A stretch of DNA of 64,000 nucleotides, from NCBI RefSeq assembly GCF_020832045.1, contig NZ_JAFIFK010000032.1, forward strand, positions 38,600-102,599, read 5' to 3'. Source of the DNA: Halomonas sp. Its GTDB lineage: Bacteria > Pseudomonadota > Gammaproteobacteria > Pseudomonadales > Halomonadaceae. The translations under genes were made by a program, and so were the position numbers. The notes under the pieces were generated by a model that saw only the letters and a list, made by a program, of their open reading frames with translations, did no database searches and was not told the origin of the DNA. Shown piece by piece: positions 21,101-62,761 of this stretch (position 1 is its first letter; each line of letters starts with the position of its first letter).

Positions 21101-23017
21101 TCACATAGGGAGATAGCTGCGCCCTTCCAGCTTCAGGTCCTGCATCGCCTGAGGGCGGCCGAAGAGATACCCTTGGAACACCTTGCAGCCATGTTCGAGC
21201 AACCAGCGATGCTGGGCCTCGTTCTCGACACCCTCTGCGGTGATTTTCAGGCCGAGACTCTGCGCCAGGGTAATTGTCGTGTTCACGATTGCCGCATCGA
21301 CGGGATCCTCGAGCACTCCGTGGATAAACGACTTGTCTATCTTCAGCCCATGCAAGGGCAACCTCTTGAGATAATTGAGCGAAGAGAAGCCCGTACCGAA
21401 ATCGTCCAGGGCAAAACGAATACCGACCTTGCTGAGACGCAACATGATGTCACGCACTCGCTGCGGGTCTTCCATCAGCAGGCTTTCGGTGACTTCCAGA
21501 ATCAAACGCGCCGGGTTGGCGCCGGTCATCTCCAGAGTGTGCTGCACTCGTGCAATGAAATCCGTTTGATGAAACTGAACCGAGCTGACGTTGACCGCAA
21601 TGGATAGCCACTCCTTGTCACACTCCTCGGACCAAACCGCCAACTGTTGGCAAGCCGTTTCGAGTACCCAATAGCCGATGGGCAGGATCAAGCGGTTCTT
21701 CTCCGCCAAGGGTATGAAAAGTGCAGGCGGTACCAGGCCGCGCCCGGGATGGTTCCAACGGATCAAGGCCTCGACGCCGGTAACCCTTGAGTGATCGTCC
21801 ACTTGCACCTGATAGTGAAGGCACAGCTCGTTGCGCGCCAGCGCCTGGTGCAGATCGGATTCGAGAAAGACTCGTTCCATCACGTCGGCTTGCATCTCGG
21901 CATTGAAGAAGCGCAGCGTGTTTCCCCCAGCCGCCTTGGCCTGTTGCAGGGCAATGTCCGCCTGACGCATGGCGGTATCGACGTTGGCTGTGCCATCGGC
22001 GAAAAGCGCGATGCCGATGCTGGCCGTGACGGGTAGTGTCATCAGCCGATCGTCCTCGGCCTGTGCACTCATTATCTGTCCCAGCAGCTTCTCGCCCACT
22101 CGCTCGGTGGCATGGGCCGCCTGCTCCACATCCAATCCCAGGTCGTGTATGAGCAATACGAATTCATCGGCCCCCAGCCGCGCCAGGGTATCACTCTCTC
22201 GCACGACATCTTCGAGGCGCTGAGCCACCCTTTGCAGCAACCTGTCGCCGCTGTAGAGCCCCTGTGTCTCGTTGATGACCTTGAAGTCATCGAGGTCAAT
22301 GAACAGCAACGCAGCGTAGCGCTCGCTACGCCGAGTCCCCTTGACGACCATTTCGAGACGATCCAGCAACAAACGGCGGTTGGGCAGCCCGGTCAACGGA
22401 TCGTAGAACGTAAGGCGATACTTGCTTTCCTGGATATCACGATACTCGGTCACATCGGTGGCAATCCCGCACAGTGCACGCACCGAGCCATCGCCTGCAT
22501 ATAAAGGAAGCTTGATCGACAGATAGGTGTTGATGGCATCGCCTTCACCGAAAAGATGCCCCTCCTCCGCCACGACCTTTTCACCCTGCTCCAGTACGCG
22601 GCGATCATTGAAGCGAAGATCCGTTGCCATGTTGGAGTCAAAGAAGTCGCTATCGGTTTTGCCAAGAATCGAGTCGGTCGGCAAGCCGATGACCTCGGCC
22701 GCCTTGCGGTTGACATATTGGTAACGAAAATCGGTAGACTTGACGAAAATGCAGGCGTCGACGCTATCGAGAATGGTAGCCAGCTCTTCCCGACTGGCAC
22801 GCAAACGATGGGTTTCATTTGTCAGCCGGCGGCGGTAAGCCAAGCCGACCATCACCAGTACGAGAGCGAGTACTACAGCCAAGGCAACACCACCCCAGCC
22901 GGGAACCGGAGGCATCGTGCCGTTCGCGGCAGCAGCAAAAGTGGTCGAAGGCAAGGCAGTCGCCAAACCGGCAATAGCTGCAAGGCACACGATGGCTAGC
23001 CAGTTAGAGTTTGGCAT
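21101..23017 (-). CDS. PAS-GGDEF-EAL c-di-GMP turnover protein
   Basis: DPLTGLPNRRLLLDRLE; degenerate GGDEF signature LGADEF; EALIRWNHP; EVTESLLMED; DDFGTGFSSLNYLKRLP. Confidence 0.93.
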   Translation of the reverse strand: MPNSNWLAIVCLAAIAGLATALPSTTFAAAANGTMPPVPGWGGVALAVVLALVLVMVGLAYRRRLTNETHRLRASREELATILDSVDACIFVKSTDFRYQYVNRKAAEVIGLPTDSILGKTDSDFFDSNMATDLRFNDRRVLEQGEKVVAEEGHLFGEGDAINTYLSIKLPLYAGDGSVRALCGIATDVTEYRDIQESKYRLTFYDPLTGLPNRRLLLDRLEMVVKGTRRSERYAALLFIDLDDFKVINETQGLYSGDRLLQRVAQRLEDVVRESDTLARLGADEFVLLIHDLGLDVEQAAHATERVGEKLLGQIMSAQAEDDRLMTLPVTASIGIALFADGTANVDTAMRQADIALQQAKAAGGNTLRFFNAEMQADVMERVFLESDLHQALARNELCLHYQVQVDDHSRVTGVEALIRWNHPGRGLVPPALFIPLAEKNRLILPIGYWVLETACQQLAVWSEECDKEWLSIAVNVSSVQFHQTDFIARVQHTLEMTGANPARLILEVTESLLMEDPQRVRDIMLRLSKVGIRFALDDFGTGFSSLNYLKRLPLHGLKIDKSFIHGVLEDPVDAAIVNTTITLAQSLGLKITAEGVENEAQHRWLLEHGCKVFQGYLFGRPQAMQDLKLEGRSYLPM

Positions 23018-23109
23018 GCCGTCACCTATTGGAAGGATACGTCAAGTTATAGCAGATAAACCTAAAGTTTCCGAAAAATACATACTTAAACGTAAGCGCA
23101 GGCACAATG

Positions 23110-23240
23110 AAAGAGCCCGGCCTTGCGGCCGGGCTGATCTTTGCTTCCATGCAACTCTCACGACCATCCTGGTCGAGCTTCCTTGGATCTTGCATCATCC
23201 TGATGCGGCCATCCCTGACGAGAGCCTCCTGCTCATGGGA
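23110..23240 (-). ncRNA. CsrB/RsmZ-type sRNA, copy A
   Basis: Minus strand has ~6 GGA motifs (CAGGAGG, CAGGGATG, CAGGATG x2, AAGGAAG, TGGAAG), several in hairpin loops (CGACC-AGGAT-GGTCG, GCATC-AGGAT-GATGC), ending in the GCCCGGCC..GGCCGGGC hairpin. Confidence 0.72.
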
Positions 23241-23462: not shown

Positions 23463-23600
23463 AAAAAGAAAGCCCGGCCTTTCGGCCGGGCTGAATCTTC
23501 GCTTCCCTACATCCTCCTCGAGCGTCCGTTGCTCAAGCATCCCTGGATCTGAGTCATCCTGACTCGTTCTTCCCTGATGAGCCTCCCTGGCTCATGTGCA
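23463..23600 (-). ncRNA. CsrB/RsmZ-type sRNA, copy B
   Basis: Minus strand has ~8 GGA motifs (AGGGAGG, CAGGGAAG, CAGGATG, CAGGGATG, ACGGACG, GAGGAGGATG, TAGGGAAG); ATGAGCC-AGGGAGG-CTCAT and GAGT-CAGGATG-ACTC hairpins; terminator AGCCCGGCCGAAAGGCCGGGCTTTCTTTTTTT. Confidence 0.78.
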
Positions 23601-25379: not shown

Positions 25380-25406
25380 TCTGTGGCGGAGAGGGAGGGA
25401 TTCGAA
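25380..25406. repeat. attL, 27-bp direct repeat tctgtggcggagagggagggattcgaa
   Basis: Identical to 62735-62761 (3' end of tRNA-Ser). Confidence 0.92.
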
Positions 25407-40612: not shown

Positions 40613-42559
40613 TTACTCTTGTGCTTTTCTTAGAAATGTAAACACATTGGAAATGGAGCCTTCCTTGACAGCTTTTTCACCCAAAGCCTCGGAGCCGAGC
40701 AAGCTCAAATGGCCCGAATTATAGTAAACAGGGACGCTATTCAAGTATGCATAGCAGGAAACACCATCACATATTTTATCGCGAATTGTGAAAGTGGCGA
40801 CATTACTATATTCGCTTACGATTTCTTCAATCAGATCGTTGACACGATGATCACCTTCATCATCTATTCTGCTTCTTTCGAAACAGTTCATTAAGGGTAT
40901 AGTGATCGCTTTTTGAGCACATTGTCTATCGTATTCATGGAAAATGGGAATCTTTTTGGCCACTAGAACGTTACCAACCCCCTTGCTCAAGTAGTCAATA
41001 GTATTTCGGAACTCATTCTCGAATTCATCACTGCGAGAAAAATAAGCGGTCCAACTCGCACCGACAATAACCGTATCGTATTTCCCCAGCTCACTCTTGA
41101 TTACTTGGTTAAACTTATCGCAAGACTCATGATCTCTTGTCACAAAGTCCGAAGAATTGTCAAAAAACGGGACACACGCGGGATGACTCAAGTTTCTCAT
41201 TGAAACCCTAGAGTGCTCAGCCACTGCCTTTAAATATCCGACATAATGAGCCGCGTTCGAGTCACCCCAAATTAAAACAGAGGGCGCTTGATCACTAGGC
41301 CCAATAATGCAACGATCATGATTTAAGAGACTTTCGAGCCTTTCATGATTACTTGACTGACAAACGTAGCGAAAGCTATAAGCAGCCTTGGTCAACTCCT
41401 CCATCGAGCTCACCCTTTCGGCATACCCTTTATTCACATAGCCATTACTACTGTAAACAAGACCTGAAAAAGAAATCACAACCGCAACTAACACAGCTGC
41501 ACCTACGGAAAATTTGACACGTCTAACCGAAGGCTTTCTAAAAGGAGTCTCTATATAGCGATAAGAAAAAACTGTGAAACCGACTATTAAAAAAAGGCAA
41601 AGCATCCCACCAATAAAAGTCGGTTCACCATATGCATACCGGTAAAATGCCAAGATGGGCCAATGCCAAAGGTAAAGCGAGAACGACAGCAGGCCAATTA
41701 TTACGAAAGGCCTAAACGAAAGCAACCTACCTACTGAACTATTACCCACGCTCCCGGAAGCAATCAGCAATGCCCCACCAATTGATGGAATCAGCGAAAT
41801 GAAGCCAGGGAAAGACGCTTTATCTATGCTAAAAAAAGACCAAACTATCAGACCGAGGCCTACTACTGAGAAAATTTCGCTCACAGCTTTATTAGAGAAT
41901 GTGGCGTACTTGTAGGTAAGCATAAATGTCATACAACCTATTAGCAGCCCTCCAGCTCTAGTAGGAAGCATATAATATGCAAAAGCCGGATCCTTACTTA
42001 CATAAAACTCACTTAACAAGAATGACGATGCTGCCAAAGCCACACTTACCCAGAAAAGTAACCTCATGCCCCCTAACTTGTAAGATAGCAGTAATATAAC
42101 TGGCCAAATTAGGTAAAACTGCTCTTCTACGCCAAGAGACCACATGTGCAGCAGCGGTACAGTATCAGTAGAAGCCGCAAAGTATCCAGCATCAAGAAAT
42201 AGCCAGAAATAGACATTTGCCAATGAAAAAACTGAGGCGATGGCTGATTCCGAAAGAGCCTTTGAGTCGGCAGGCAACATAAAAACCATTCCGACCAACA
42301 ATGTCACCAGCGTTACAAACATTGCTGCAGGCACAATCCTTCTCACACGCCTAACAAAAAACTCTTTAAAAGAGAAACCACCCTGCTCCACTTGTCGATA
42401 CACAATACCTGTTATCAGAAAGCCCGAGATAACAAAGAATATATCCACCCCGATAAAACCGCCAGGCAGCCATTCATTGTTAAAATGAAAGACAACAACT
42501 GAAATAACAGCAAGAGTTCTCAGGCCATCAATGTCTGGCCTGTATTGACTATTATGCAT
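40613..42559 (-). CDS. OafA/YrhL-type acyltransferase with C-terminal SGNH domain (cargo)
   Basis: YRPDIDGLRTLAVISVVVFHF, FFVISGFLITGI, SLGVEEQFYLIWP, SGNH-type IWGDSNAAHY; clearly AT-richer than flanks. Confidence 0.92.
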   Translation of the reverse strand: MHNSQYRPDIDGLRTLAVISVVVFHFNNEWLPGGFIGVDIFFVISGFLITGIVYRQVEQGGFSFKEFFVRRVRRIVPAAMFVTLVTLLVGMVFMLPADSKALSESAIASVFSLANVYFWLFLDAGYFAASTDTVPLLHMWSLGVEEQFYLIWPVILLLSYKLGGMRLLFWVSVALAASSFLLSEFYVSKDPAFAYYMLPTRAGGLLIGCMTFMLTYKYATFSNKAVSEIFSVVGLGLIVWSFFSIDKASFPGFISLIPSIGGALLIASGSVGNSSVGRLLSFRPFVIIGLLSFSLYLWHWPILAFYRYAYGEPTFIGGMLCLFLIVGFTVFSYRYIETPFRKPSVRRVKFSVGAAVLVAVVISFSGLVYSSNGYVNKGYAERVSSMEELTKAAYSFRYVCQSSNHERLESLLNHDRCIIGPSDQAPSVLIWGDSNAAHYVGYLKAVAEHSRVSMRNLSHPACVPFFDNSSDFVTRDHESCDKFNQVIKSELGKYDTVIVGASWTAYFSRSDEFENEFRNTIDYLSKGVGNVLVAKKIPIFHEYDRQCAQKAITIPLMNCFERSRIDDEGDHRVNDLIEEIVSEYSNVATFTIRDKICDGVSCYAYLNSVPVYYNSGHLSLLGSEALGEKAVKEGSISNVFTFLRKAQE

Positions 42560-48406: not shown

Positions 48407-49407
48407 GCCGCCGGCCTGACTCCCGCATCCGGCTTCAGGGCCAAACCTTGAGCCCTGAGCTGCGCGCCCGCCTGATCAGCCTACGCCTGACTGATCGGCG
48501 CGGCATGGAGGCCGACCAGCTCGACCTTACCCTCTCCGACCACGACGGCCGCCTCGCCCTGCCGCCCCGCGGGGCCGAGCTGCAGCTGGCCATCGGCTGG
48601 CATGGCGAAGGACTGATCGAGAAAGGAACCTTCATTGTCGACGAAGTAGAGCACAGCGGCAGCCCAGACCAGGTGAGCATTCGCGCCCGCAGTGCCGACA
48701 TGCGCGGCGACCTACCCGGCAAACGCAGCCGCAGTTGGGACGAGCTCACCCTCGAACAGATCATCGAAACCATCGCCGGCCAGCACGAGTTAGAGCCCAT
48801 CATCGGCCAGAGTTATCGCGGCGCGCTGATCGAGCATATCGACCAGACCGAGGAGTCGGATCTCCATTTCCTGACCCGCCTCGCCGAGCGGTTCGACGCC
48901 GTGGCCACCGTGAAGGCTAAGCGGCTTTTGTTCGTGGCTGCCGGCCAGGCACTCACCGCCAGCGGCCTTGAGATCCCCACGCTCACCCTCACCCGCCGCG
49001 ACGGCGACCAGCACCGTTATGTCACCTCCGACCGCGACAGCTACAGCGGCGTGATAGCCAAATGGCACGACCCGAGCGACGCCTCGATTCACGACGTCAT
49101 CGCCGGTACCGAGGAGAACCCCAAGCGCCTTAGACCCGCCTACGCCAGCCAGGCCGACGCCCTGGCCGCCGCCACCAGCGAGTGGCAGCGCATCCAGCGT
49201 GGCCATGCCGAATTCACCTTGGTGCTGGCCGAAAGCGACCCACGCCTGATGCCGGAAACCCCGGTACGCTTACGGGGCTGGAAGAAAGAAATCGATAGCA
49301 CACCCTGGATAGTGACCGTAGTGACACACGAATTAAGCAATAGCGGATTCACTAGCAGCATCGAGCTTGAAACAAAGGCACCCTATATTTCAAGCAGTGG
49401 GAAATAA
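48403..49407 (+). CDS. D: P2 gpD-like late control/baseplate hub protein
   Basis: ISLRLTDRRGMEADQLDLTLSDHDGRLALPPRGAELQLAIGWHG. Confidence 0.94.
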   Translation: MSRRPDSRIRLQGQTLSPELRARLISLRLTDRRGMEADQLDLTLSDHDGRLALPPRGAELQLAIGWHGEGLIEKGTFIVDEVEHSGSPDQVSIRARSADMRGDLPGKRSRSWDELTLEQIIETIAGQHELEPIIGQSYRGALIEHIDQTEESDLHFLTRLAERFDAVATVKAKRLLFVAAGQALTASGLEIPTLTLTRRDGDQHRYVTSDRDSYSGVIAKWHDPSDASIHDVIAGTEENPKRLRPAYASQADALAAATSEWQRIQRGHAEFTLVLAESDPRLMPETPVRLRGWKKEIDSTPWIVTVVTHELSNSGFTSSIELETKAPYISSSGK

Positions 49408-50073
49408 TAGTTCCTGATACCAAATATCATAAGGTCTGCAAACGATCACCTTCTCTCCTATCCCTGCCAACAGGTCTTGATAGCGCTGGCATTCAGGTAG
49501 GGAGAAAAACGGCCCTACCCGCCTTTCGCTTGTATCTTCTAGAAGAGAAAAATGGTAAAGCTCATCTGCGCGAGAAATATATCCATTAACCAATTGGCTC
49601 GCATTGATGTTTGCTTGATTTTCTATCTTATCGAAAACGTTGCATAAATTCTCATAACGAGCCATGACAACATCATAGGCGAAAGATGTTGAATCCCGCT
49701 CAGACATCGAATCTTTAACGAGACAGCTAACTTGTTTTTTATTAGCAATACGGGAATATTCCCTGTATATAAAACCATAGCTTTCTCTTAGAGCCCTAAT
49801 TTCCTCAGAAACCCATTCCGCTTCAGAAATACTAGGCGAGTTATCGCCACTCTTGTCTAATCTGACTTCTCTAGGCATTAACTCCCAGATAAGGAGAGCG
49901 GCGAAAGCAGCAATGCCTATTTCAAAGCTCTTATCATCCACAAATTGCTTTATTCTCTGCCAAAGCTTGCTGGCCACCATCTGTCCTCGACTCCAAGGAA
50001 AAAGCGCGGCCGCAGTATACTTCGGGACCTCTTCTCGCCACACTTGATTTTTCATGTGGAAAAGCAGCTTCAT
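49390..50073 (-). CDS. Hypothetical membrane-anchored protein, convergent with D (moron)
   Basis: AT-richer ORF, one TM-like segment (FEIGIAAFAALLIWELM). Confidence 0.6.
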   Translation of the reverse strand: MKLLFHMKNQVWREEVPKYTAAALFPWSRGQMVASKLWQRIKQFVDDKSFEIGIAAFAALLIWELMPREVRLDKSGDNSPSISEAEWVSEEIRALRESYGFIYREYSRIANKKQVSCLVKDSMSERDSTSFAYDVVMARYENLCNVFDKIENQANINASQLVNGYISRADELYHFSLLEDTSERRVGPFFSLPECQRYQDLLAGIGEKVIVCRPYDIWYQELLFPTA

Positions 50074-50725: not shown

Positions 50726-50741
50726 CTGTATAAAACGACAG
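50726..50741. promoter_or_regulatory. LexA/SOS box CTGTATAAAACGACAG
   Basis: Exact CTG-N10-CAG, in the divergent region between the S24-like gene and umuD. Confidence 0.82.
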
Positions 50742-50760: not shown

Positions 50761-51201
50761 ATGACACTGGCAAACCTCATCCCGGCTCACCCCGAGCCGC
50801 CTTCCCTTGCGCTTCCCTATCCCCTGGCATTGGGCCGCGCCGGGCTTTCCGGCTTTCCCAGCCCGGCCCAGGACTACGAAGGCCGCACGCTCGATCTCAA
50901 CCAGCATCTAGTCAAACGACCCTCGGCCACATTCTTCATGCGCGTCACCGGCGATAGCATGGTGCTGTTAGGCATCCGGGATGGCGATCTGTTGTTGGTC
51001 GATCGCTCCCTCGAGCCACGCCCAGGTCACATCATCGTCGCCATGGTCGATGGCGAAATAACCGTGAAGCGCTATGAGCTGAGGGGCAACGTGCCCTGCC
51101 TCTGCTCGGGCAACCCGCGCTACGCCCCCATCCCGCTCGTCGATATCGAGTGCCAAGTCTGGGGCGTGGTGCGTTCGGTCATCCACGAGTACACGGTATG
51201 A
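50761..51201 (+). CDS. umuD: UmuD-like translesion polymerase accessory protease
   Basis: GFPSPAQDYEGRTLDLNQHLVKRPSATFFMRVTGDSM...GEITVKR. Confidence 0.95.
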   Translation: MTLANLIPAHPEPPSLALPYPLALGRAGLSGFPSPAQDYEGRTLDLNQHLVKRPSATFFMRVTGDSMVLLGIRDGDLLLVDRSLEPRPGHIIVAMVDGEITVKRYELRGNVPCLCSGNPRYAPIPLVDIECQVWGVVRSVIHEYTV

Positions 51202-52484
51202 CCATGATTGGCCTTGTTGACTGCAACAGCTTCTACGTCAGCTGCGAGCGAGTGTTTCAGCCTCGGCTTCGGGGCCTCCCGGTAGGCGTGATGTCGAACA
51301 ACGACGGCTGCGTGATCGCCCTATCCAACGAGCTGAAAGCGCTCGGCATCACCATGGGCACCCCGGCATTCGAGCTTCAGCATCTGGTACGTCAGAAGCG
51401 AATTCACCTTCTCTCGAGCAACTACGAGCTCTACGGTGACATGAGCCAGCGGGTGCAGTCAGTGCTCGAGGAGTTCGCCCCGGCCGTCGAGCCCTACTCC
51501 ATCGATGAAATGTTCGTGAGGTTCGACGGCTTCACCCATGAGCAACTGCTCGAGCATGCCAGGCAGCTGCACCACAACGTACGTCAGTTCACCGGCATAC
51601 CGGTCTGCGTCGGCGTCGCTCCCACGCGCACCCTAGCGAAGCTGGCGAACCGTGCGGCAAAGAAGATCCCGGCTTATGAGGGTGTCTGCGTGCTCCAGCC
51701 AGACAGCCGGGAAACCCAAGTCCTGCTTCAGAAGATCGAGCTGGGAGATGTCTGGGGTGTCGGCCGGCGACTCGTCGAGCGGCTGGCCACCATGGGCATC
51801 AAGAGCGCCTGGGACCTCGCGAAGGCCAACCCAAAAGAGATCCGGCGGCGCTTCTCGGTCACCCTGGAGCGCACCGCCCTTGAGCTGCGCGGTGTGCCCT
51901 GTATCGAGATGAATGATTTTGACGAAGCCCGCAAGCGCATCATGACCAGCCGCAGCTTCGGCAAACTCACCGACGATATCGGCGAGATCCGCGAGGCGAT
52001 CCGACAGCATGGGCAGCGCGGCGCGGAGAAGTTGCGCAGCCAGAATGGCCTCGCAAAAGCTGTAATGGTGTTCCTGAAAACGAACCCGTTCAGGCAGGAT
52101 CTGCACCAATACTCACCGAGCCTGGTGGTTGAGCTACCGCGCCCAACGTCAGACAGCCGCGAGATACTCAACGCCGCCGGCCACGCCTTAGAACGAATCT
52201 ATCGTAAGGGCTACCTGTACCAAAAAGGCGGCGTGATGCTGCTGGACCTGATAGACGCCGATCGGCAACAGCTCTCGCTGCTTGATACCCCTCAAAGCGA
52301 CGCCGACAGGCAGCGCAGCAAGAAGCTGATGGCAGCCATGGATGAGCTCAACAAGAAGATGGGGCGCGATACGGTCAAGCTCGGCAAACCCAGCGCTGGA
52401 GCTGCGTGGCACTTACGCTGTGCGCATCGCTCGGCACGTTGCACGACGCGATGGGACGAGCTGCCGCCGGTGAAGGCGCTATAA
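51198..52484 (+). CDS. umuC: UmuC-like Y-family DNA polymerase V subunit
   Basis: GLVDCNSFYVSCERVFQP, VMSNNDGCVIALSNE, PYSIDEMFVRF. Confidence 0.96.
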   Translation: MTMIGLVDCNSFYVSCERVFQPRLRGLPVGVMSNNDGCVIALSNELKALGITMGTPAFELQHLVRQKRIHLLSSNYELYGDMSQRVQSVLEEFAPAVEPYSIDEMFVRFDGFTHEQLLEHARQLHHNVRQFTGIPVCVGVAPTRTLAKLANRAAKKIPAYEGVCVLQPDSRETQVLLQKIELGDVWGVGRRLVERLATMGIKSAWDLAKANPKEIRRRFSVTLERTALELRGVPCIEMNDFDEARKRIMTSRSFGKLTDDIGEIREAIRQHGQRGAEKLRSQNGLAKAVMVFLKTNPFRQDLHQYSPSLVVELPRPTSDSREILNAAGHALERIYRKGYLYQKGGVMLLDLIDADRQQLSLLDTPQSDADRQRSKKLMAAMDELNKKMGRDTVKLGKPSAGAAWHLRCAHRSARCTTRWDELPPVKAL

Positions 52485-52487
52485 CGC

Positions 52488-52617
52488 GAAAGCCCGACCG
52501 TGAGGCCGGGCTGAATCTTCGCTTCCTTACTACCATCTCAAGCATCCTGCTCGAGCATCCTTGGTACTGAACGATCCTTCGTTCGGTCTTCCCTGAAGGG
52601 CTCTCCGTTGCCCGTTA
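52488..52617 (-). ncRNA. CsrB/RsmZ-type sRNA, copy C (prophage-borne)
   Basis: Minus strand has ~6 GGA motifs (ACGGAGA, CAGGGAAG, AAGGATC, AAGGATG, CAGGATG, AAGGAAG), hairpin loops, and shares GGAAGCGAAGATTCAGCCCGGCC plus terminator with copy B. Confidence 0.7.
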
Positions 52618-52692
52618 CATATCAAGGTAGTCGCTTAGGGTGAAAACCGTGCTAACACAGGTTATGAAACTGTGTAAGAAGCCGCTTCGTTT

Positions 52693-52709
52693 TGTAGGCG
52701 GCTATTACA
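52693..52709 (-). promoter_or_regulatory. Imperfect GacA-like inverted repeat TGTAGGCGGCTATTACA
   Basis: Upstream of copy C; 17 bp (one short of the 18-bp form); a TGTAAG half-site also at 52673. Confidence 0.35.
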
Positions 52710-52715
52710 AAGCCG

Positions 52716-53372
52716 CTAGGCGGGATTGATCAGCCCTGCATCCTCATCGTTGCCGGGCCGGTTAACATCCCGGCTCACCGGCCAGTGCTCGATCAATCCC
52801 GCTTCCAAGTGGCGAACGACGCTGCGCATCGTCTCCCGATCCGTTAGGTCAGGATCGAGCCAGGGCTCAAGGCTTGCATCGTCCAGGATCAACGGCATCC
52901 GGTCGTGCACCTCGGCGGCGCGGCCTCTCGCCGGCTCGGTCAGGATCGCGCAGCCCAGGCTGCCATCTTCTCGCTCAGCGTAGATGCCGGCGAACGCCAG
53001 CGGCTCCCGGTCTAGTCGGGTGAGATAGTGAGGTTGCTTGCCGGTCTCGGTGGCCAGCCACTCATACCAGCCATCAGCAGGCACGATGCAGCGCTGTCGC
53101 GCGAAGGCATGCTTGAAGTAGCCGCTTGTAGCCACCGTCTCGACGCGGGCATTGATCGGCTGCGCCGACCGGCCCTTTGCCCACTTCGGGCGATAGCCCC
53201 ACCACAGCTCGAGCTGTTCAGGTGCTGAGTCATGGGCAACTTGCCGAATCCCGCTGATCCAGGTGCCCGGCGGGATGTTATAGCGCGGCGGCGGCGCATC
53301 GGGTTCCATCGCGACGCGGAGTCGCTTGGCGAGCCGAGGGTAGGCGCTGAATAGAGAGAATCGTCCACACAT
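52716..53372 (-). CDS. SRAP/HMCES-YedK family abasic-site protein
   Basis: MCGRFSLFSAYPRLAKRL...RYNIPPGTWI...INARVETVATSGYFKHAFARQRCIVPADGWYEW. Confidence 0.95.
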   Translation of the reverse strand: MCGRFSLFSAYPRLAKRLRVAMEPDAPPPRYNIPPGTWISGIRQVAHDSAPEQLELWWGYRPKWAKGRSAQPINARVETVATSGYFKHAFARQRCIVPADGWYEWLATETGKQPHYLTRLDREPLAFAGIYAEREDGSLGCAILTEPARGRAAEVHDRMPLILDDASLEPWLDPDLTDRETMRSVVRHLEAGLIEHWPVSRDVNRPGNDEDAGLINPA

Positions 53373-53514
53373 GCGTCGAGTTTAGCAGGAGTCGACGGCC
53401 ACGGAATTGTGCAGCGATAGCGGTATTTTCTGACAATGCGCCCGGCTGATCTCTTACACGCCTTCATCCGAAGGTCTGCATAATGTGCAACCTGTACGAA
53501 TCACGGCAAAGCAT

Positions 53515-61479: not shown

Positions 61480-62646
61480 ATGGCAGAGGGCGTCGAGGTG
61501 CGCGGCAATACCGTGCGCGTATATTTCCGCTGGGAGGGCGAGCTATGCCGCGAAAAACTGCCAGGCAAGGCGACGGAACGGAATATCGAGCATGCCAAGC
61601 GCATGGCGACGATCATCAACTATGAGATCGATACCGGCACCTTCGATTATGCCCGGCACTTCCCCCAATCCGCACGCCTGCAAGAAAGTCGATTCGGCTA
61701 CTACCTGGACCTTTGGTTGGCGATCAAGAAGAACGAGCTGGCTTTCTCGAGCTACCGTGGCATTGCCTCGAAAGCCGAAACCCACGTGCGGCCGCGCTGG
61801 GGCAATGCACTCGCCGATAAAATCGATCACATCGAGCTGCAGGACTGGATTCAGAAGGATCTGGCAAGCCAACTGGCTAATAAGACGATCAAGGAGATCG
61901 TCAGCATCATGCGGCAAACCTTCAGGCTCTACTCGACCCGAAACAAGCACATCTTCGATCCGACGCTTGGGATCAACATTCGCCTACCCGACGACGATGA
62001 CCCTGATCCGTTCTCCAGGGAAGAGATCAGCCAGATCCTCAGCACACCAACCAAACGTGTGCAGGAGCTCAATCTGATCAGGTTTTCCCTCTACGATGGC
62101 CCGAGGATCTCCGAGACTCAGGCATTGGCCTGGGAGGATGTGCTCGACGTGGAGCGTGGCATCATTCGCTATCGGCGAGCAGTGGTGCGTGGTCGCTTCA
62201 AGGTAACGAAGACCAAGCGATCGAACCGAGTGCATCACCTTCTCAAGCCGGCGAGAGAGGCGCTCCAGGAACAGTACGCCATGACCGGTAAGCTGCCTGC
62301 GCATGAATACGAGATCGTCGATCGGGACAACCGAACAGTACGGAAGGAAAAGCTGCGCCTGGTGTTTTTGAATTCGCTGTCAGGCAAGCCGTTCTATGAG
62401 AATGCGATACGCGAACGCTTCTGGAGAACGCACTTGGAAAAGGCAGGCGTACGATACCGCGGCCCCAACCAGTGCCGTCACACGTTCATCAGCCAAATGC
62501 TTTCCCTGGGCGTGGTGCCGCTGCACTGGATATCGAACCACGTCGGCCACTCCAGTATCACCATGATTCAGCGGCGCTACGGCAAATGGATTCATGCCGA
62601 TGGCCAGGACGTTCCCGCCATGATCGAGAAGCTTCTCGATCTATAA
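61480..62646 (+). CDS. int: Tyrosine recombinase/integrase
   Basis: LIRFSLYDGPRISETQALAWEDVLD ... CRHTFISQMLSLGVVPLHWISNHVGHSSITMIQRRYGKW. Confidence 0.95.
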   Translation: MAEGVEVRGNTVRVYFRWEGELCREKLPGKATERNIEHAKRMATIINYEIDTGTFDYARHFPQSARLQESRFGYYLDLWLAIKKNELAFSSYRGIASKAETHVRPRWGNALADKIDHIELQDWIQKDLASQLANKTIKEIVSIMRQTFRLYSTRNKHIFDPTLGINIRLPDDDDPDPFSREEISQILSTPTKRVQELNLIRFSLYDGPRISETQALAWEDVLDVERGIIRYRRAVVRGRFKVTKTKRSNRVHHLLKPAREALQEQYAMTGKLPAHEYEIVDRDNRTVRKEKLRLVFLNSLSGKPFYENAIRERFWRTHLEKAGVRYRGPNQCRHTFISQMLSLGVVPLHWISNHVGHSSITMIQRRYGKWIHADGQDVPAMIEKLLDL

Positions 62647-62734: not shown

Positions 62735-62761
62735 TCTGTGGCGGAGAGGGAGGGATTCGAA
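62735..62761. repeat. attR, 27-bp direct repeat
   Basis: Identical to 25380-25406; covers tRNA-Ser 3' end. Confidence 0.92.

Follow-up and report, generated by a model that had tools for sequence, protein, structure and literature searches.

A probable Csr/Rsm-type decoy RNA gene as host-derived cargo of a P2-like prophage in Halomonas

What is encoded in the short interval that separates umuC from the SRAP gene in a Halomonas sp. prophage? A preliminary description of the window (the whole stretch of 64,000 nt that was analysed) had read positions 52488-52709 as a minus-strand RNA of about 130 nt that titrates CsrA. According to our analysis, the feature is quite probably a Csr/Rsm-type decoy RNA gene, linked to umuC and kept as lysogenic cargo of host origin. 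Its family, structure, location, recurrence and host origin were demonstrated computationally, and its transcription, its binding to CsrA and any benefit to the phage are inferred.

The placement between umuC and SRAP in an att-bounded prophage was correct. A 27-bp exact repeat of the 3' end of a tRNA-Ser gene forms attL (25380-25406) and attR (62735-62761), and a tyrosine integrase (61480-62646, plus strand; PF00589) belongs to the element. Pfam and PHROG assignments (portal, terminase, capsid, sheath, tape measure, GPD, CI-like S24 repressor, integrase) identify a P2-like prophage. To count as its cargo, the sRNA should lie between the att sites on an element with phage structural genes, and it does. 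The same prophage carries an O-antigen acetylase-like gene (40613-42559; phrog_6705), a typical surface-modifying cargo. Next to the sRNA lie umuD (50761-51201, plus strand; Peptidase S24 in Pfam) and umuC (51150-52484, plus strand; Pfam IMS, IMS_C and DUF4113), the latter convergent with it, while the SRAP gene (52716-53372, minus strand; PF02586, E=2e-57) is located upstream on the same strand as the sRNA. A LexA-box-like motif, CTGTATAAAACGACAG (50726-50741, plus strand), precedes umuD, so SOS transcription of umuDC converges on the sRNA.

Only part of the interval first proposed corresponds to the RNA. Covariance model R1, covariation and GGA exposure place the sRNA body, of about 132 nt, at 52486-52617 on the minus strand, whereas 52618-52709 lies outside it and is its promoter region. 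The body scores 143.5 bits with R1, whose training set included this copy. It contains six GGA motifs in 132 nt, as had been described. This number does not exceed chance (dinucleotide-shuffle mean 4.9, P=0.34) and was discarded as evidence. The exposure of the motifs in loops, also claimed before, is above chance: in the prophage copy their mean unpaired probability is 0.87, versus 0.45 in shuffled sequences, and the hairpins covary. Folding of the whole interval gave z=-2.8. From the 5' end of the RNA, the fold consists of hairpin 1, GGGC-AACGGAGA-GCCC, with GGA in the loop (52598-52613; 4/4 helix pairs covary in the family); hairpin 2, GAACGA-AGGA-TCGTTC (52569-52584; 5/5), whose sequence in this copy, GAACGAAGGATCGTTC, is different in the other aligned copies; hairpin 3, CTCGAGCAGGATGCTTGAG, with AGGA at the loop (52537-52555; 7/7); and a terminator-like stem-loop, AGCCCGGCCTCACGGTCGGGCT (52491-52512), supported by the fold and by covariation in the family.

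The proposed terminator hairpin was right as to the stem, GCCCGGCC-TCAC-GGTCGGGC, which is strong and conserved in the family. The U-tail that follows is short and weak (TTTCGCG), and a strict terminator scan of 52400-53500 gave no match. The stem-loop may also terminate umuC from the opposite strand, and such a shared stem may separate SOS transcription of umuDC from the sRNA. As the umuC stop (52484) lies beside this stem, the structure could be mainly a bidirectional terminator for umuC, its GGA likeness being incidental. However, covariation extends to three further hairpins, all of which present GGA, the motif is strongly asymmetric between strands (on average 7.4 GGA per family copy in sense and 0.68 in antisense), activator boxes lie upstream, and copies exist away from umuC. 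We consider this explanation highly improbable and retain a Csr/Rsm-type RNA.

The RNA has relatives in the host genome. As described previously, its 3' end recurs in a host copy at 23.5 kb: the 23-mer GGAAGCGAAGATTCAGCCCGGCC occurs exactly twice in the window, at 52504-52526 and 23484-23506, and was absent from shuffles. The copies near 23 kb are outside the att-bounded element and are therefore host copies, namely paralogue B (23466-23597, minus strand; 131.4 bits; intact box TGTCGGTTATCTCTTACA) and paralogue A (23109-23239, minus strand; 109.3 bits; intact box TGTCGGCAATTTCCTACA). The prophage RNA had been labelled copy C, which implied three copies and fell short: the source genome contains about ten (7 by blast, 11 with model R1, including a weak one of 25.8 bits, and 10 with R2).

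The family can be defined as an RNA of about 130 nt with four hairpins, three of which present GGA and the last of which is the terminator-like stem. Among 131 copies from the sampled genomes, two-sided (compensatory) changes were found at 24 of the 25 base pairs, 95.7% of the cells of the four-helix structure are paired, and covariation scores 0.484, where shuffled alignments give 0.197 and slid partners no more than 0.080. Since this alignment was fitted to the covariance model, it leans toward the modelled structure. An independent MAFFT alignment of 18 sequences still gave 0.330, with 0.185 after shuffling and no more than 0.098 after sliding. Searches with patterns and models found the family in 19 of 61 genomes drawn from the genus, and in 103 of 201 drawn from the Halomonadaceae; the latter represent 11 of 24 genera, and each has between 1 and 16 matches. 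Among the named relatives are Billgrantia ethanolica, B. desiderata, B. aerodenitrificans and B. kenyensis. Order- and class-wide searches outside Halomonadaceae returned only few, weak and scattered matches. One of them (L396) lies where RsmZ also gives a match below threshold, which is suggestive only.

Host copies are often found in small arrays or adjoining a GGDEF-EAL gene. Tandem arrays, and up to 16 matches per genome, were seen in G175 and other Halomonadaceae, and in the source genome itself at C96:43513-47222. GGDEF-EAL genes lie beside the sRNA in the window (21101-23017) and in L064, L072, L073, L081, L084, L099, L112, L122 and L125, a possible link of Csr decoys to c-di-GMP control. 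Other recurrent neighbours of sRNA copies are proteins of some 200 aa that match no Pfam family and share 25-33% identity with the product of the prophage gene at 49390-50073 (L022, L059, L075, L089, L098, L114 and L119, in host and phage contexts).

Does this family belong to the Csr/Rsm class? The check suggested in the preliminary description, against the Rfam models for CsrB, PrrB_RsmZ and related RNAs, matched no family at gathering threshold for the copies examined, and a permissive search gave sub-threshold scores only. With RsmY (RF00195; threshold 57), the prophage copy reaches 11.2 bits and the best family member (L037) 28.9 bits; with RsmZ (RF00166; threshold 44), the best score is 23.8 bits, for the 23.1-kb copy; CsrB (RF00018; threshold 71) gives no more than a partial match of 9.4 bits, with the host copy at 23 kb. 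Membership in RF00166 PrrB_RsmZ, RF00195 RsmY or RF00018 CsrB by gathering threshold is accordingly not met. Of the functional traits that mark the class, several GGA motifs, some of them in hairpin loops, and a CsrA in the same cell are present. The genome encodes one CsrA (PF02599, E=1.6e-26), together with a GacA/UvrY orthologue of 55% identity (found with E. coli UvrY as the protein query). For Halomonas anticariensis, regulation by GacS/GacA has been described (PMC4187203). The CsrB/RsmY/RsmZ-type architecture first proposed is therefore strongly supported by covarying hairpins, loop GGA, GacA-type boxes and resident CsrA and GacA/UvrY, without binding data. Because of these features, the prophage RNA is very probably a CsrA-sequestering sRNA of Csr/Rsm type, its binding to CsrA and its transcription being inferred.

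Further information was obtained from the activator boxes. A perfect TGTMRG-N6-CYKACA box (12/12) is found upstream of 57 of the 131 copies, and at least 11/12 positions match in 78 of them; the corresponding values for shuffled upstream sequences are 0 and 0.8%. In nearly all cases the box is placed at -70 to -73 or -92 to -98 relative to the RNA start. The Serratia PigQ (UvrY) box, TGTAAGATATCTCTTACA, has the same form (PMC8450108). The prophage copy has neither box intact, and the better of the two matches at 9/12. The proximal one, ACGAAGCGGCTTCTTACA (52673-52690, minus strand), has lost bases according to motif matching and homologue comparison and is that 9-of-12 match; the distal one, TGTAATAGCCGCCTACA (52693-52709, minus strand), is one base short in its spacing when compared with relatives, the corresponding sequence being TGTAAGATATTTCCTACA in L020, L021, L062 and L071. 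A weak candidate -10 hexamer, TACCTT (52624-52629, minus strand), was inferred from its position relative to homologous promoters, and no sigma-70 consensus was matched in 52400-53500. Since both GacA/UvrY boxes are damaged, expression of the prophage copy is likely altered.

This damage is compatible with two other explanations. The preliminary description itself had considered that the RNA might derive from the 3'UTR of SRAP. In this view transcription of SRAP would read through and its message would be processed to release the RNA, which would act as a sponge under SRAP control. SRAP and the RNA do share a strand, the SRAP stop lies about 100 nt upstream of the RNA with no terminator in between, and the RNA's own boxes are impaired. 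However, most homologues occur without SRAP, each behind a GacA-boxed promoter of its own, so that we regard this origin as unlikely. It is also conceivable, although we give it clearly less weight than a functional decoy, that the gene is a genuine Csr/Rsm sRNA by descent that came with the abutting umuC, with which it probably shares the terminator, and that it is now a decaying and largely silent passenger. Both boxes carry indels while those of the closest relatives are intact, and umuC and sRNA are together of host-locus type. Against this, the RNA body is intact with its GGA exposed, and it is more conserved than the silent sites of umuC (80-89% identity to host umuC-linked copies, versus 51-61% at umuC four-fold sites), which indicates constraint on the RNA, as judged from these identities, and not specifically on the phage branch. 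Moreover, other proviruses keep intact boxes and gained their copies independently. For these reasons we prefer a decoy RNA gene kept as cargo.

These other proviruses show how often the arrangement recurs. The SRAP-sRNA-umuD(C) slot is filled in at least three other divergent P2-like proviruses. The order SRAP-sRNA-umuC-umuD is found in L113/L134, with two sRNAs and a GPD 61% identical to that of the window prophage, and in L096/L137 (GPD 63% identical), while L136/L216 (73%) has the slot with umuD and no detected umuC. L115/L135 is a probable further case, its IMG/VR contig ending at SRAP. Boxes are perfect (12/12) in L136, TGTAAGATATAGCTTACA, and in L096/L137, TGTCGGCGATTTCCTACA in L137, and nearly so in L134, TGTAAACTATCTCCTACA (11/12). 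Beside the intact sRNA of L137 there is a second, degenerate copy (L137:6737-6824, equal to L227:13030-13117; 23.9 bits with R2). In L100, L109, L120, L128 and L129, SRAP-sRNA-umuC stands among genes not matched to this P2-like phage type. The RNA is not required in the slot, since proviruses L141, L143 and L151 have the slot without it. A blast search of the sRNA against phages and plasmids returned nothing, and neither did a search for the exact 23-mer in IMG/VR; relatives were reached only through SRAP, GPD and umuC neighbours and the covariance models.

Where did the prophage copies come from? The sRNA tree has long branches and rests on short sequences, which limits it; in this tree the slot copies are spread over at least four distinct clades. 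The window copy groups with L020 and host umuC-linked copies (support 99/98); L113a, L109, L120, L121 and L136 lie among host copies (90/96), with several weak inner forks; L096 goes with the G039/G059 copies (100/97), and L113b with L115 (100/100). As far as sequence comparison can tell, this four-way split argues for repeated acquisition of slot sRNAs by related prophages. Host sRNAs abutting umuC were found in L071, L021 and L062, and the umuC tree places the window umuC with L134 and with host loci of this kind (82/93). As the window umuC and sRNA are both of host-locus type, joint capture is the simplest history, and the prophage copy probably entered together with umuC, an inference from the two trees. 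The umuC gene of L062/L065 (B. desiderata), like that of L332/L389 (IMG/VR contigs 2617270887_000001/2), is interrupted at residue 163, and other DNA lies on either side. This suggests that umuC, beside the sRNA locus, serves as the integration site of an element.

We hypothesize that a phage lineage took the sRNA and its neighbour umuC together from a umuDC-sRNA locus of the host type, and kept the sRNA as lysogenic cargo in the SRAP/umuDC slot. The minus-strand transcript would start near 52617 and end near 52486, carry GGA in three hairpins plus linkers, and bind the single CsrA of the host at these exposed GGA, lowering free CsrA as RsmX/Y/Z and CsrB do. Related proviruses with intact boxes would provide extra CsrA-titrating capacity when BarA/UvrY (GacS/GacA) is active. 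In the present prophage, expression is likely lower, constitutive or dependent on SRAP read-through. A bolder proposal, which remains speculative and which we doubt as a whole, is that a CsrA-decoy RNA is a recurrent lysogenic-conversion module of Halomonadaceae P2-like phages, repeatedly captured from hosts, controlled by GacA/UvrY in most lineages and freed from it here, that would lower CsrA in the lysogen and alter lifestyle or defence to the benefit of the prophage. In Serratia, RsmA represses CRISPR-Cas and the decoy raises it (PMC8450108). The slot is a defined one, in which the presence, absence and activator-box state of the RNA can be compared between phages.

Compared with known systems, the family resembles RsmX/RsmY/RsmZ of Pseudomonas (RF00166, RF00195, clan CL00106) in its length of about 110-130 nt, AGGA-type loops, 3' terminator-like stem, upstream GacA box and tendency to multiple copies. 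P. syringae, with up to five RsmX (PMC7911923), has the highest copy number found in the literature searched. The Halomonadaceae family differs from these RNAs in that it lacks a threshold Rfam match, arranges its hairpins differently, reaches 16 matches per genome and has copies inside prophages beside umuDC/SRAP. It shares with CsrB/CsrC of Enterobacteria (RF00018) the logic of CsrA titration, the control by BarA/UvrY and the GGA repeats, but CsrB is much longer (356 positions in the Rfam model) and has many more GGA. Serratia RsmB, with PigW/PigQ, has a UvrY-family box nearly identical to those of the present family, for example that of L136, although RsmB is single copy (PMC8450108). In the open literature (subscription papers were outside the search) we found no paper that deals with Csr sRNAs of Halomonas or with Csr decoys borne by phages, nor, in the literature searched, so multi-copy a family or its repeated carriage by phages. 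The family is an unlisted, highly multi-copy Csr-type RNA of the Halomonadaceae, a clade of biotechnology use. Csr sponges are already known, and recurrence across phages is the new point; it suggests that phages tap the CsrA control circuit of their hosts. The csrA/rsmA protein genes of phages and plasmids are documented (PMC7366521, PMC8450108), and in phages it is RsmA proteins, not decoy RNAs, that have been reported (PMC8450108). In both cases a mobile element reaches into the Csr circuit. However, those elements supply the protein, while the Halomonas prophage carries an antagonist RNA that should act in the opposite direction. If this is true, phages could also push the Csr switch the other way, with about 130 nt and no protein.
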